DNA of 64,000 nucleotides from Roseimicrobium sp. ORNL1 (GTDB lineage: Bacteria; Verrucomicrobiota; Verrucomicrobiia; Verrucomicrobiales; Verrucomicrobiaceae). Position 1 is the stretch's first letter, and each line of letters begins with the position of its first letter. The notes under the pieces were generated by a model. That model saw only the letters and a list, made by a program, of their open reading frames with translations, made no database searches and was not told the DNA's origin. A program made the position numbers and the translations under genes. Where the stretch lies: positions 4,898,001-4,962,000 of the forward strand of contig NZ_CP049143.1 in the NCBI RefSeq assembly GCF_011044495.1. Reading direction: 5' to 3'. This document shows, in pieces, positions 29,687 through 63,905 of this stretch.

Positions 29687-31204
29687 CTACACCGCCTTCC
29701 GGATTTGCTCCGTGAGGGCCGTCACCACCTGGCGGAACTCCTCACTCTTCGTCATCTTCTGGGCGATGGTCTTGCAGGCGTGGATGATGGTGCCGTGGTC
29801 CTTCCCGCCGAAGGCATCGCCAATCTCCTTGAACGGAGACTTGGTAAGCTCGCGGGCCAGGTGCATGGCAATCTGCCGCGGCAGGGCAATGTTCGCTGGA
29901 CGGCGCTTGCTGTTCATGTCTGCGAGACGGATGTCGAAATGCTCGGCCACCACCTTCTGGATGATGTCGATGGTGATCACCCCGGTCGCGGGCTCCTCCA
30001 GGATGTCCGCCAGCAGCGTGCTGAGCGTTTCCTTGGTCAGGGGCTCGGCCGGCTTGCTGCGGTCACCCGTGCCGGACATGGAAATGTGGCCCGCCACGCG
30101 CATGAGGGACCCCTCGAGACGGCGCACGTTGGTACGGACATTCTCCGCCAGGAACGTGAGCACCCAGTCCTCCACCGGCACCGCCCAGTCACGTGTCTTC
30201 TGGCGCAGAATCGCCGTGCGAGTCTCCACATCGGGCGACTCGATCATGGTCGTCATCCCCCACTCGAAGCGGGAGACGAGACGCTCTTCCAGATTCTTGA
30301 TGTCGCTCGGTGCGCGGTCGCTCGTGAGGATGATCTGTTTGAAGGAATTGAACAGGTCATTGAAGGTGTGGAACACCTCTTCCTGCGTGCCACCCTTGCC
30401 CGCGAAGAACTGGATGTCATCGATCATGAGGACATCCACCTTGCGGTACTTCTGGCGGAAGGCATTCACGCGATGCATGCGCACCGCCTCGATGTACTCA
30501 TTGGTGAAGGCCTCGCTGGTGACATAGCGCACGACCTTGCGCGGCTTGTTGCGCAGAATCTCCTGGCCGATGGCCTGCATCAGGTGCGTCTTGCCCAGAC
30601 CCACATTTCCATGAAGGAAAAGCGGGTTATAAGTTTTTCCAGGCTTTTCCGCAACGGCGCGGGCCGCGGCAAACGAGTACGAGCAGTTCGGACCCACCAC
30701 GAAGGAGTCGAACGAGAAGCGGTGGTTCAGTCCGGCATCCGAAAGGCTGCGGGCAAAGCGCGCTTCATCGCGGAAGGGAACCTCATCTCCGGTGGCCTCG
30801 ATCGTGACCGCTGTCTCACGGCGACGGTCCATGCTGCGCGCAGCTTCACGAAGCTGCGGACGGGACTCCACGGGAACCTCAGGGTCCACCATGAACTCGA
30901 TGTCACAAGCACCACCCGCCACATCTGCAATGCAGGAAGTGAGCGGCTCCATGAAATGCTCCTCAATCCAGTACTGGTGCATGAGGTTCGGCACCCGCAG
31001 CACCACCGGTGCAGGGTCAAGACGTTCGATGGTGACCTTGGAGAACCAACGGTCAAAACTCAGCGATCCAATTTTTCCACCGAGATCCACAGCAGCGCGC
31101 TTCCAGGCCTTCACTTCAGGTCCAGGCTCCGGTACACCGGGGAATTTGAGAGGAAGAAGTTCACCTTCCTCTTCGGGATCAAGGTCACGACGGGACGTGC
31201 TCAT
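29687..31204 (-). CDS. dnaA: Chromosomal replication initiator DnaA
   Basis: A 505-residue AAA+ initiator that binds DnaA boxes and melts the origin. It has an N-terminal domain I, a linker with acidic residues, Walker A GNVGLGKTHLM, Walker B LMIDDIQF, and the domain IV helix-turn-helix with GGKDHGTIIHACK, the DnaA-box signature (usually DHTTV). Upstream in-frame starts at 31234 and 31213 exist; the ATG at 31204 (MSTSRRDLDPEEE) is chosen because it leaves more leader and removes a hydrophobic start. The 280 bp upstream are AT-rich but show no cluster of DnaA boxes. Confidence 0.96.
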   Translation of the reverse strand: MSTSRRDLDPEEEGELLPLKFPGVPEPGPEVKAWKRAAVDLGGKIGSLSFDRWFSKVTIERLDPAPVVLRVPNLMHQYWIEEHFMEPLTSCIADVAGGACDIEFMVDPEVPVESRPQLREAARSMDRRRETAVTIEATGDEVPFRDEARFARSLSDAGLNHRFSFDSFVVGPNCSYSFAAARAVAEKPGKTYNPLFLHGNVGLGKTHLMQAIGQEILRNKPRKVVRYVTSEAFTNEYIEAVRMHRVNAFRQKYRKVDVLMIDDIQFFAGKGGTQEEVFHTFNDLFNSFKQIILTSDRAPSDIKNLEERLVSRFEWGMTTMIESPDVETRTAILRQKTRDWAVPVEDWVLTFLAENVRTNVRRLEGSLMRVAGHISMSGTGDRSKPAEPLTKETLSTLLADILEEPATGVITIDIIQKVVAEHFDIRLADMNSKRRPANIALPRQIAMHLARELTKSPFKEIGDAFGGKDHGTIIHACKTIAQKMTKSEEFRQVVTALTEQIRKAV

Positions 31205-31483
31205 GGCAAGCATAGTTGATGTCGTGAATTTCACTCCGCAGTGTTCAGCTCTTTCGCTTCATTAACCTTCCCTACACAATCCCCTGCGGCGAAATTTTTG
31301 AAATTCATCCCTCTCGTTTAGGACTCATTCGAGAAAGTCACAAGATAATCTTCGATCATTTTGAAAACTCTTTCCAAACTTTCAACTTGCGTCAAAAAAT
31401 CAAAAAAAGGCTTGCCGTTTTGGTCGTGATTCCCCATGCCTTGTGCTGCCTTGCATGCGGCTCGATGTGTTGTTTTTTAAGCC
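31205..31483. promoter_or_regulatory. AT-rich divergent leader of dnaA; no clear origin
   Basis: This interval separates dnaA from a divergent small gene and must hold both promoters. It is visibly richer in A+T than its surroundings between about 31285 and 31420, with runs such as AAATTTTTGAAATTC and CAAAAAATCAAAAAAAGG. No TTATCCACA-type boxes were found by eye, so I do not call oriC. Confidence 0.4.
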
Positions 31484-31735
31484 ATGTCCGACGCTTCTCC
31501 AACCCTTGACACACTTGCCGAACTTTTACAAAAACGGCTCGATGTGATCGCCGACAGCGAACTTCGCATGAAGGATGCTGAAGCACATCTCGCGGCACTG
31601 CGCGAAGTCTCTGAAGCAATCGATGCAGAGCATCAACGCCTGCGCTCACAACTTGATGGACGTCTGCGACACTTCCTGCAGCAGGCGAGTTATCAGAAGG
31701 CGCTGGAGTGGATTCAAGCATCGAGGAAGAGTTGA
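31484..31735 (+). CDS. Small helical protein, unknown function
   Basis: An 83-residue protein divergent from dnaA, almost entirely helical and charged (LAELLQKRLDVIADSELRMK, ALREVSEAIDAEHQRLRSQL). It could be a coiled-coil adaptor. No family is recognised. Its stop codon (31733-31735) lies inside the left arm of the family-D repeat that follows. Confidence 0.6.
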   Translation: MSDASPTLDTLAELLQKRLDVIADSELRMKDAEAHLAALREVSEAIDAEHQRLRSQLDGRLRHFLQQASYQKALEWIQASRKS

Positions 31736-31912
31736 TAGTTGATGGTCGATGGTTGATAGCCTGAAGAAGTCTAGAGTCTGAAAAACTCGAGTGCAGAGCC
31801 AGCTCGGGATCCAGCGTAAAAACGCAGCTGAGTTTGAGGGACTGGAATGTATCAGACACTCAACTCTCAACCTTCTCAGGCTATCAACTATCAACCAAAG
31901 ACCATCAACCCT
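31729..31912. repeat. Family-D paired inverted repeat with GATAGTTGATAG-type arms
   Basis: The left arm at 31729-31766 (GAGTTGATAGTTGATGGTCG, ending TTGATAGCCTGA) pairs with the right arm at 31859-31912 (TCAGGCTATCAACTATCAAC and on). It lies between convergent genes and provides the TGA of the plus-strand gene at 31733-31735 and of the minus-strand gene at 31905-31907. A single arm of the same family is at 49858-49905. Confidence 0.85.
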
Positions 31913-33117: not shown

Positions 33118-33170
33118 TTCAACACAGAGACACAGAGACACAGAGACGCAGAGGAACTTCGGAGACTGAG
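33118..33170. repeat. Family-G ACACAGAG-type dispersed repeat, longer version
   Basis: TTCAACACAGAG followed by two further ACACAGAG-like units, then GACGCAGAGGAACTTCGGAG. The flanks match 23161-23197 exactly, so the difference is a 16-bp gain or loss of units. The 500-bp gap 33006-33505 holds this repeat, a family-A palindrome and a GCTGCTTTGCTGCTTTGCG tract; no gene is seen. Confidence 0.78.
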
Positions 33171-40121: not shown

Positions 40122-41237
40122 ATGAGGATACGCACCATCAAACCGGACTTCTGGCATCACGAGGGCATGGCGGCGCTGCCGGCGGAGACGCGGCTGCTGG
40201 CCATCGCGCTGCTGAACTGGGCGGATGACGAGGGGTACTTCCTGGCGGCGGCGGCGCTCATCAAGGGGAACCTGTTTCCCTTTACGGAGGCATCGCCGGA
40301 CGTTCCGAGCATGTTCGCGGAGCTGTGCCGCGTGGGTTGGATGCAACTGGGCACGGACACGGAGGGCCGCAAGGTGGGCCGCATCATCAACTTCTCCAAG
40401 CACCAGTGCGTGAACAAACCCCGCGCCTCCCGCTTGAAGGACACCAGTACCTTTTCCCTACCCCTCCCGGACGCTTCCATGAAGGCTCCTGTACCATTCC
40501 CGGAGGCCTCCATGGAGGAAGGGAATGGAAGAGGAATAGGAACTGGAAGTGGAGTTGGAAACGGAACGGGAACAGGAAATGGAATGGAGGAGGCTGCGCC
40601 AGCAGCAACTCCTCCACCAACCTTTGCAGCGGCAACAACAGCAGCAGCGGCACTCACGCCTGCGGCGCAAGCTCTGCCCTCGACGGGCATGAGCGGGAGC
40701 AAGAGTATGAGCATGAATGCGATAGGGTGTGATGGCAAATATCCCACCATGGAACAGGCACTCGCCTATGCGCAAGGGGCGCCCATCCCCATCACCCCGG
40801 CACAGGCCACGGCGTGGCATGAGAGCCGGTCTGACAACGGATGGATGACCAGTGTGCGAGGCACCCTCACGCCCATCGCCGACTGGCGGGCGAACCTCCA
40901 CAGCTTCGTCCGAATCTGGAACACGAGGGACGCGGACAAGAAGGCGAAGGAGGAGGAACGACTGCGACGGCAGAGGGAGAAGAGTGGGCAGGGGAAGCGC
41001 CCGGGGGCAGGTCATGCGCCTGGGAGAGAGCATGAGGAAGAGCACGAGCAGGAGCAAGCGTGTGAGGAGGCATCATCTCCGGATACACCCTCACCACCGG
41101 GCCGGGCAGAGCTCAGCATGCACGAGCGCTTTGCCCACTTCACCCGCATGCAGGAACTCGACCGTGAGTGGGAGGCCTCCCCCCACCCCGCCGATGAACT
41201 CCCACCCTCCCAGCGCCCTGAGAACCAAATCCAGTAA
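40122..41237 (+). CDS. Phage/plasmid-type replication initiator or helicase-loader protein
   Basis: A 371-residue protein. The N-terminal 100 residues (MRIRTIKPDFWHHEGMAALP, then LNWADDEGYFLAAAALIKGN and INFSKHQ) match the winged-helix N-terminus of prophage replication proteins. A Gly-X dipeptide linker encoded by a GGAAnn hexamer repeat follows (about residues 134-155), then an Ala/Thr-rich stretch. The C-terminal part has WMTSVRGTLTPIADWRANLH, a pattern seen at the end of phage replication proteins, and a charged tail. It precedes a primase-helicase gene, supporting a role in initiation. Confidence 0.78.
   Translation: MRIRTIKPDFWHHEGMAALPAETRLLAIALLNWADDEGYFLAAAALIKGNLFPFTEASPDVPSMFAELCRVGWMQLGTDTEGRKVGRIINFSKHQCVNKPRASRLKDTSTFSLPLPDASMKAPVPFPEASMEEGNGRGIGTGSGVGNGTGTGNGMEEAAPAATPPPTFAAATTAAAALTPAAQALPSTGMSGSKSMSMNAIGCDGKYPTMEQALAYAQGAPIPITPAQATAWHESRSDNGWMTSVRGTLTPIADWRANLHSFVRIWNTRDADKKAKEEERLRRQREKSGQGKRPGAGHAPGREHEEEHEQEQACEEASSPDTPSPPGRAELSMHERFAHFTRMQELDREWEASPHPADELPPSQRPENQIQ
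40511..40593 (+). repeat. GGAAnn hexamer tract encoding a Gly-X linker
   Basis: About 83 bases of imperfect GGAAnn hexamers inside the initiator gene, encoding alternating Gly with Asn, Arg, Ile, Thr, Ser or Val. The tract keeps frame if units are gained or lost, so linker length could vary between strains. Confidence 0.75.
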
Positions 41238-41446
41238 GCAGTAATCAGTAAGCAGTAAGTCAGTGACCAGACGATGCATGACTCATTCTTCATGGCTCCC
41301 GGAGGGAGCGCGGCTGGTAGCCGCTGTCCCTCCGGGACAAACACAATTCCTAACTCGCCGCGCAAACCCAACGCCCACCTGCTCACCGCCCACCTGCTCA
41401 CCGCTCACCGCTCACCGCTCCACTGACCTACTGACCTACCGACTCC
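41233..41446. repeat. Family-I simple repeats flanking a GC-rich hairpin
   Basis: AGCAGTAATCAGTAAGCAGT-type repeats at 41236-41265 and CTCACCGCTCACCGCTC / CTGACCTACTGACCTACC at 41397-41441 flank a strong hairpin at 41297-41337. The hairpin stem TCCCGGAGGGA/TCCCTCCGGGA is 11 bp, continued by GCGGCT/AGCCGC with a three-base loop. Pairing between the two flanks is only partial. The whole lies between the initiator and primase-helicase genes and could act as attenuator or mRNA processing site. Confidence 0.6.
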
Positions 41447-49857: not shown

Positions 49858-49905
49858 AAGAGTTGATAGTTGATAGTTGAGGGTCGATAGTTGATAGCCT
49901 GAGAC
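49858..49905. repeat. Family-D repeat, single arm
   Basis: AGAGTTGATAGTTGATAGTT followed by GAGGGTCGATAGTTGATAGCCTGAG. It matches the left arm of the element at 31729-31912. No partner arm is visible nearby. It lies between folB and the HAD-Nudix gene. Confidence 0.72.
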
Positions 49906-61335: not shown

Positions 61336-61469
61336 TTCAACACAAAGACACGGAGTCACGGAGACACAGAGGAGAGATTGGTGTAGGCGCGAAAAGCGCC
61401 CGTTCCGTCTCATACCTCATTCCCTCCAAATACTCCATGTCTTTGTGTCTCCGTGCCTCTGTGTTGAAA
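61336..61469. repeat. Family-G repeats arranged as an inverted pair
   Basis: 61336-61376 (TTCAACACAAAGACACGGAG and on) and 61433-61469 (GTCTTTGTGTCTCCGTGCCT then GTGTTGAAA) are reverse complements at about 56 bp distance, giving a hairpin of the ACACAGAG type. The 309-bp gap to the next gene has no other feature except a short AATCANAAAT-type tract near 61562-61592. Confidence 0.8.
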
Positions 61470-62376: not shown

Positions 62377-63780
62377 ATGAAGCCCTCGCACCTGTTCACC
62401 GCTCTCTGCCTGACCGTCACGGCCGCCCTCTTCGCCTCGCCTCTCCAGGCGGAGGAAATCAAGACCGTGCGCGACTTCGGCGCGAAGGGCGATGGCACCA
62501 CGGATGACACCCAGGCGATCCAGAAGGCGGTCGACTCGGGGCATGGCAGCCTCGTCTTTACGAAGGGCACCTACAAGCTGACGAAGCCCATCACCATCAA
62601 TCTCGATACCACGGGCTTCACCTCGCTCACGGGAGATGGCACCCCGCGCATCATCATGAGCGGTGCGGGCCCAGCGTTCCATTTCGTTGGCACCCATGAA
62701 GGCTCTGCCGCCCCCTCCGACTTCAAGCCGAACGTCTGGGAAAAGCAGCGCATGCCCATCGTGCGCGGCATCGAGATCGTGGGCGACCACAAGGAGGCGA
62801 ATGGCCTGGAGTTCACCGGCGTGATGGAACTCACCGTCACCGAGACAAACATCCGCGAGTGCTTCCACGCCATCCATTTCACCAAGCGCAATCGCAACCT
62901 CATTGTCGCCAACTGCCACCTGTATCACAACCGCGGTGTCGGCGTGCTCTATGACAATGTAAACATCCACCAGAGCAACATCGTCGGCTGTCACATCAGC
63001 TACAACGCCGGCGGTGGCGTGGTCACGCGCGGTGGGAACGTTCGCAACCTGCACATCGGCACCTGCGACATCGAGAGCAACATGTCACCCGACACACCTC
63101 CCACGGCGAATGTCCTCATCGACTGCACGGGCGGCTCCACGGGAGAAGTCGCGGTGACCGGCTGCACGCTCCAGCACAACAGCAAGTCTCCCGGCAGCGC
63201 GAACATCCGCGTGCTCGGTACCGGCACGCTCAGCGAGAAGAAGGCAGACCCCACCAAGGAGGGCCACATCGCCATCACCGGAAATGTTTTCAGTGACGTG
63301 AAGGTGAACATCCACCTCGACAACGCCCGCGGCGTGAACATCACCGGCAACTCCTTCTGGGAGGGCTTCGAGCACGACCTCCTCATTGAAAACAGCCAGG
63401 CCATCGTGGTCGGCCCCAATGACTTCGACCGCAACCCCCGCTACTCGGTGAATGGCAACTGGGCCAAGGACATCAACGGCCTCGTCTTCCGCAACTGCTC
63501 CGACTGCAAGGTGGCTGGCGTGCTGGTGAGCGGCGTGTGGAATAAGGACGCCGCTGTCCTGCTGGAAAACTGCGACCGCATGACCGTGAGCGATTGCAGC
63601 ATTCTCGACAGCGACGGCATCGGCCTGTGGCTGAAGAACTGCACCCGCACCAAGATCTCCGACAACGTGATCCGCGATGACCGCGAGGAGAAGAAGATGA
63701 CCCTCTCCCTGAAAGTGGAAGGCGGGAAGGACAACAAGTTTGATGACAACGTGCTGGCCAACGGGAGCGAGGGGCTATGA
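62377..63780 (+). CDS. Exported right-handed beta-helix (pectate lyase superfamily) protein
   Basis: A 467-residue protein with a signal peptide (LFTALCLTVTAALFASPLQA) and an N-terminal pectate-lyase-superfamily motif (VRDFGAKGDGTTDDTQAIQK). Many short beta-helix coils follow (NITGNSFW, CTRTKISDNVIRD and similar). Such proteins bind or cleave acidic polysaccharides. It starts 49 bp after the deacetylase gene and may be in the same transcript. Its stop codon overlaps the start of the family-H repeat. Confidence 0.88.
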   Translation: MKPSHLFTALCLTVTAALFASPLQAEEIKTVRDFGAKGDGTTDDTQAIQKAVDSGHGSLVFTKGTYKLTKPITINLDTTGFTSLTGDGTPRIIMSGAGPAFHFVGTHEGSAAPSDFKPNVWEKQRMPIVRGIEIVGDHKEANGLEFTGVMELTVTETNIRECFHAIHFTKRNRNLIVANCHLYHNRGVGVLYDNVNIHQSNIVGCHISYNAGGGVVTRGGNVRNLHIGTCDIESNMSPDTPPTANVLIDCTGGSTGEVAVTGCTLQHNSKSPGSANIRVLGTGTLSEKKADPTKEGHIAITGNVFSDVKVNIHLDNARGVNITGNSFWEGFEHDLLIENSQAIVVGPNDFDRNPRYSVNGNWAKDINGLVFRNCSDCKVAGVLVSGVWNKDAAVLLENCDRMTVSDCSILDSDGIGLWLKNCTRTKISDNVIRDDREEKKMTLSLKVEGGKDNKFDDNVLANGSEGL

Positions 63781-63905
63781 GTTAGAAGTTAGGGGTTAGG
63801 GGGCACGAAGGAAAAATTCCGGGCTAAATATCCGGAATGCTCGCGCCGTCATGTGAGTGCGTTCCAGCTTCATGACTCATAACGCGTAACCCATAACCTC
63901 TAACA
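63780..63905. repeat. Family-H paired inverted repeat (TTAGGGGTTAGG type)
   Basis: 63780-63803 (AGTTAGAAGTTAGGGGTTAG) and 63873-63905 (ACTCATAACGCGTAACCCAT and AACCTCTAAC) pair imperfectly. A small hairpin, TTCCGG..CCGGAA, lies inside at 63817-63837. The window ends about 95 bp later without another gene visible. Confidence 0.7.

Follow-up and report, generated by a model that had tools for sequence, protein, structure and literature searches.

When two converging genes both end inside one inverted repeat, has the repeat brought their stop codons, or does it lie behind stops that were already there? The question is raised by a locus in a 64,000-nt stretch of the Roseimicrobium sp. ORNL1 chromosome (the window; NZ_CP049143.1, positions 4,898,001 to 4,962,000), where an inverted repeat is all that separates a small conserved gene from a convergent SRPBCC gene (Table 1). 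The initial annotation had placed the TGA of each gene within the repeat, and this is borne out: both lie in its outermost heptad, GT-TGA-TR. The 83-residue frame terminates as ...GAAGAGT-TGA-TAG, its TGA belonging to heptad 1 of the left arm (GTTGATA), and the SRPBCC frame as ...GAGGGT-TGA-TGG, its TGA belonging to heptad 1 of the right arm (GTTGATG). The arms form an inverted repeat of 50 nt with 76% complementarity. The repeat far exceeds chance, since the heptad doublet GTTGATRGTTGATRG has eight matches in the window (at most two mismatches) against 0.2 expected, and the RNA fold of the locus has a far lower energy than its shuffles (z = -6.05). For the DNA fold, z is -5.23.

The automatic gene caller scores both short genes too low, and their identity therefore rests on orthologues and not on coding score. 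The 83-residue protein matches no Pfam family above the cut-off, and an orthologue is present in 47 of 57 genomes; the other protein is assigned to SRPBCC/Polyketide_cyc (PF03364, E = 4.9e-8). Beyond the pair, on the minus strand, lies a gene (29687-31234) that we take, from its translation, to be dnaA-like.

Table 1. Features of the locus and a further arm of the same family (positions in the window)
Feature	Position	Strand	Remarks
Small conserved gene, 83 aa	31484..31735	+	TGA 31733-31735 within left arm
SRPBCC / Polyketide_cyc protein, 151 aa	31905..32360	-	TGA 31907-31905 within right arm
Left arm, GTTGATAGTTGATGGTCGATGGTTGATAGCCTGA, inward-pointing heptad array	31731..31764	+	profile score 59 bits
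Interior, 111 nt, differs between species	31765..31875	.	64% identity to the G001 interior vs 60% shuffled
Right arm, GTTGATGGTCTTTGGTTGATAGTTGATAGCCTGA	31876..31909	-	profile score 63 bits
Further arm of the same family	49862..49902	+	no partner detected

Is the element peculiar to this locus? A search of the 7.96-Mb source genome (G000) returned 123 matching stretches, and the genome-wide counts that follow are drawn from such searches and from 515 kb of selected regions, which also cover a sister species of the same genus (G001). Over these regions the arm profile, with the consensus GTTGATGGTCTATGGTTGATAGTTGATAGCCTGA, finds 136 arms, as against nine in the reversed sequence. Each arm comprises 34 nt of imperfect GTTGATR heptads with AGCCTGA at the inner end. 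There are 37 family sites in the source genome and 39 in the sister species, with 22 inverted pairs in each whose heptads are directed inward; neighbouring arms follow the plus/minus order in 42 of 48 cases. The interior varies from 15 to 361 nt, and in the predicted minimum-energy fold of every one of the 44 pairs, 20 bp or more join the two arms in a helix. A further 40 detected arms fall outside the called pairs, several elements are paired in one species and represented by a single arm in the other, and at about 20 loci an element is detected in just one of the two species. The same architecture and position recur in another genus of the family (G007) with a related heptad array, GTTGATGGCTGATAG.

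Some members depart from this plan. Arms without the AGCCTGA inner end occur at 5624526 and 7270387 of the source genome (L091, L096) and in the sister species (L175), inside a long stretch, presumably an arm-bearing mobile element, that is 98% identical between the two. Three arms of the same orientation, apparently partnerless, overlap a long called ORF at L094:2997-3293 (G000 6557795-6558106), a region partly common to L165 of the sister species.

Several 7-nt repeat families, unrelated to one another, appear to coexist in the source genome. Long GCTTACT/CAGTAAG arrays are found at 2606084-2606160 (L075) and at 41232-41264 of the window. At 61336-61468 of the window an inverted repeat of octamer-like units, ACACAGAG and CTCTGTGT, has arms of 36 nt that are 81% complementary, with 61 nt between them, and is preceded at about 10 nt by a TAG. 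This is the same layout in another sequence family, and the unit recurs at 33122-33153. The beta-helix gene at 63780 had been described as ending at the edge of a further repeat. The adjacency is real; its stop is not repeat-borne, as the gene has its own TGA at 63778-63780 and the repeat GTTAGAAGTTAGGGGTTAGG starts at 63781. The segment 63778-63904 thus holds this TGA and, at once, a different heptad array (GTTAGAA, then GTTAGGG twice), with opposite-strand heptads, GTTAGAGGTTATGGGTTACGCGTTATGAGTCATG, some 70 nt beyond, an equivalent architecture built from another heptad.

Where do stop codons lie relative to the arms of the GTTGATR family? At 60 arm edges a gene with a clear coding signal runs into the arm. 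Its stop lies 2-20 nt outside the arm at 47 of these edges, farther away at ten and inside the arm at three. Two apparent stops at arm offset 16 (L066, L154) are kept in that last count; as gene ends they were discounted, because each appears to lie opposite a gene that scores better. At 20 of 37 sites in the source genome and 24 of 39 in the sister species, a coding stop falls in heptad 1 or no more than 17 nt outside an arm; the fraction of intergenic sequence this near a stop predicts 2.2 and 2.3 sites (about double if both edges are counted).

If the stops belong to the genes and not to the element, proteins should end at the same residue where the element is missing. For elements detected in one species alone, the orthologous locus was located in the other, and 22 gene ends could be compared. 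Twenty of the proteins are exactly equal in length, the exceptions differing by +5 and -1 residues. Nearly all the counterpart loci are element-free, though not strictly all are empty: L180, the counterpart of L090, has a degenerate arm, and L188, the counterpart of L139, is unchecked for remnants. Because 20 of 22 ends are unchanged, the stops are independent of the element: copies lie just behind stops that already existed and normally do not bring them.

The locus itself is less simple. The orthologous site in the sister species carries the equivalent element, and both genes again stop at the first TGA of an arm; the SRPBCC protein is 87% identical between the two, the arms are identical at 28/34 and 32/34 positions, and the interiors are unalignable. 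Among the orthologous regions examined from other genera, none showed an arm. There the orthologues of the 83-residue protein share a conserved ALEWI/ALEYL core and then terminate by unrelated stops, with a variable tail, from -3 to about +8 residues from the same point. SRPBCC homologues (29-51% identical) likewise stop close to the corresponding point, some of them after as many as about 20 extra residues. An insertion between the genes had been expected to truncate or re-end both of them. No truncation of the 83-residue protein is visible in the comparison with element-free orthologues, and neither protein has lost a domain; a re-ending by a few terminal residues is possible, and the comparison within the genus does not decide it, because both genomes carry the element there.

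The initial annotation had gone on to propose that the repeat supplies stops in many frames and so makes insertion at gene ends tolerable. Both stops of the locus do lie in arms, in two species, and G007 adds four further convincing cases, every one at the first TGA of an arm. As a general rule the proposal is refuted by the three stops among 60 clear edges and by the 20 proteins of unchanged length. Nor are the frames closed as it would have them: most arms close two (95/115) and only 19/115 close three, just mildly more than shuffled arms do, and frame 0 is open in 96 of 115. We regard the proposal as very improbable.

How have the elements been maintained? At the 13 sites common to both species, the arms are identical at 821 of 884 positions (93%), and most interiors are at the level of shuffled sequence, the exceptions being L071 (96%), L081 (87%), L087 (78%) and L078 (76%). 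Orthologous arms agree at 31.6/34 positions on average and non-orthologous arms at 30.1/34. Since orthologous arms are barely more alike than any two arms, selection or gene conversion keeps all arms close to one family consensus. Pairing between the two arms leaves a fainter trace. Arms of one element agree at 30.25/34 positions and arms of different elements at 29.84/34, a value reached in 28 of 2000 permutations; double changes at shared sites are concerted in five cases and discordant in six. Covariation between arms is present but weak. On the sense strand, 32 G-U and 21 A-C mismatches were counted; since G-U is not clearly favoured, a hairpin acting as RNA is not established over a role at the DNA level.

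Such a role could take the form of arms that bind a protein (gyrase, an IHF/HU-like or other nucleoid factor) or of a cruciform that absorbs supercoiling between transcription units. The narrow gap between 31.6 and 30.1 identical positions suggests that the sequence itself is kept, beyond what pairing would demand, and the weak covariation and the DNA fold (z = -5.2) agree with this. DNA binding has no need of a tight spacing to the stop codon, which is a coordinate linked to translation, and convergent gene pairs, as judged with a simple gene caller, are not clearly enriched at the elements (7/33 against a local background of 15/108). A DNA-level element is therefore unlikely.

Could the elements be selfish? 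A miniature mobile element of the REPIN or MITE kind, mobilised in trans, might land anywhere, survive only behind stops and have no host function; at the studied locus its insertion would have struck the last codons and shifted both gene ends by a few residues. There is a likeness to REPINs (PMC3116915) in the inverted pairs, which enclose a variable spacer, and in the single arms that have decayed; the terminal inverted repeats are also those of MITEs, presence is lineage-specific at about 20 loci, and the genome has 17 Y1_Tnp (RAYT/IS200-like) matches. Around the best 12 of these 17, the 1.5-kb flanks contain no arm. Survival alone would leave unexplained why elements are concentrated within about 20 nt of stops and not spread over the whole 3' intergenic space, and a dead neutral insertion would need gene conversion to retain 93% identical arms at old shared sites with lost interiors. 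In a search for target site duplications, the intergenic sequence beside the arms could not be aligned between filled and empty loci, so the insertion borders are unmappable. On balance, a purely selfish element is possible but doubtful.

A dispersed repeat of the genus that forms REP/REPIN-type structures at mRNA 3' ends, behind pre-existing stops, is the best explanation, with roughly an even chance of being right. It is favoured because the position behind the stop, the inverted pairing and the conservation of the arms only all fit. Copies would settle, or be retained, directly 3' of existing stop codons, and the element would be transcribed as the beginning of the 3' untranslated region, where it would fold as a long hairpin, one that could serve both mRNAs if the genes converge. 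The hairpin might act as a barrier, setting the 3' end of the mRNA or shielding it, or as a structure for termination or pausing; within reach of the terminating ribosome, it may also dampen translation. At the studied locus an arm abuts each gene so tightly that its first TGA is the gene's stop. Single arms exist, and several pairs are represented by one arm in the other species, so the pair is not indispensable everywhere.

A standard intrinsic (Rho-independent) terminator, a GC-rich hairpin with a short loop and a U-tract behind it, was considered and rejected. There is no U-tract beyond the distal arm, where base composition is not T-rich, the loops measure 15-361 nt, and the pattern match at the locus is at chance level only. 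No covariance model of Rfam 15 matched up to E = 1. Alternatively, the GTTGATR arms might be a sequence-specific, bidirectional 3'-end signal, read in nascent RNA behind the terminating ribosome by a dedicated factor that links the end of translation to transcription termination or to the making of the 3' end. If true, this would account for the single arm consensus, the free interiors and the placement within about 20 nt of stops; we hold it to be rather improbable.

How does the family compare with known repeats? REPs of the GTAG/CGTC superfamilies are 20-40 nt palindromes with a GTAG or CGTC tag at one end. They are mostly intergenic and occur where ORFs finish, <20 bp from the 3' end of the upstream ORF or, between convergent ORFs, from that of each; GTAG-type REPs often supply the stop codon themselves, and GTAG/CGTC families occur in the verrucomicrobium O. 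terrae (PMC3733652). The heptad elements also lie <20 bp from ORF 3' ends. Unlike those REPs (PMC3733652), their arm is a 34-nt array whose consensus has no GTAG/CGTC terminus, a single arm folds weakly (-4.8 kcal/mol), and the stop in an arm is TGA. A REPIN consists of two REPs in inverted orientation around a less conserved spacer, with a predicted hairpin, and singlets are likely remnants (PMC3116915). The heptad elements share the inverted conserved ends and the less conserved spacer of the predicted hairpin, whereas the ends are not REP sequences and the interior length varies widely. In E. coli, according to the RepRanger summary (PMC12306157), REPs are reported to downregulate translation only if they are within 15 nt of the stop; the heptad structure likewise begins within 15 nt of the stop, in unrelated sequence.

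Two other kinds of short repeat invite comparison. The heptanucleotide TAACTGA repeats of Beggiatoaceae are intergenic 7-nt arrays that can overlap stops and close frames (PMC4679880), but their units repeat directly and mostly precede start codons, whereas in the present family the pairs are inverted and follow stops. DNA uptake sequences, when inverted, are short genomic repeats that form hairpin terminators downstream of genes (TransTermHP, PMC1852404). Their motifs are 9-11 nt long, generally in at least 1,000 copies, and the hairpin is followed by a T-rich tail (PMC1852404), in contrast to about 40 sites with long arms and no U-tract. The heptad family would thus work like REP, REPIN and heptamer repeats, yet lacks defining features of REPs and REPINs: it has no tag, no strong internal hairpin and, where a REPIN would lie close to its cognate RAYT gene, no linked RAYT among the matches inspected. 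A literature search found no description of the family, which appears to be undescribed; REP termini that supply stops <20 bp from gene ends have already been published (PMC3733652).

A REPIN-like architecture placed next to stops can, then, be assembled without REP tags, from nothing more than a heptad array. What repeats next to stops do for mRNA ends and for translation has long been debated, and some 20 natural pairs of filled and empty loci in two species make the question testable with the protein unchanged.
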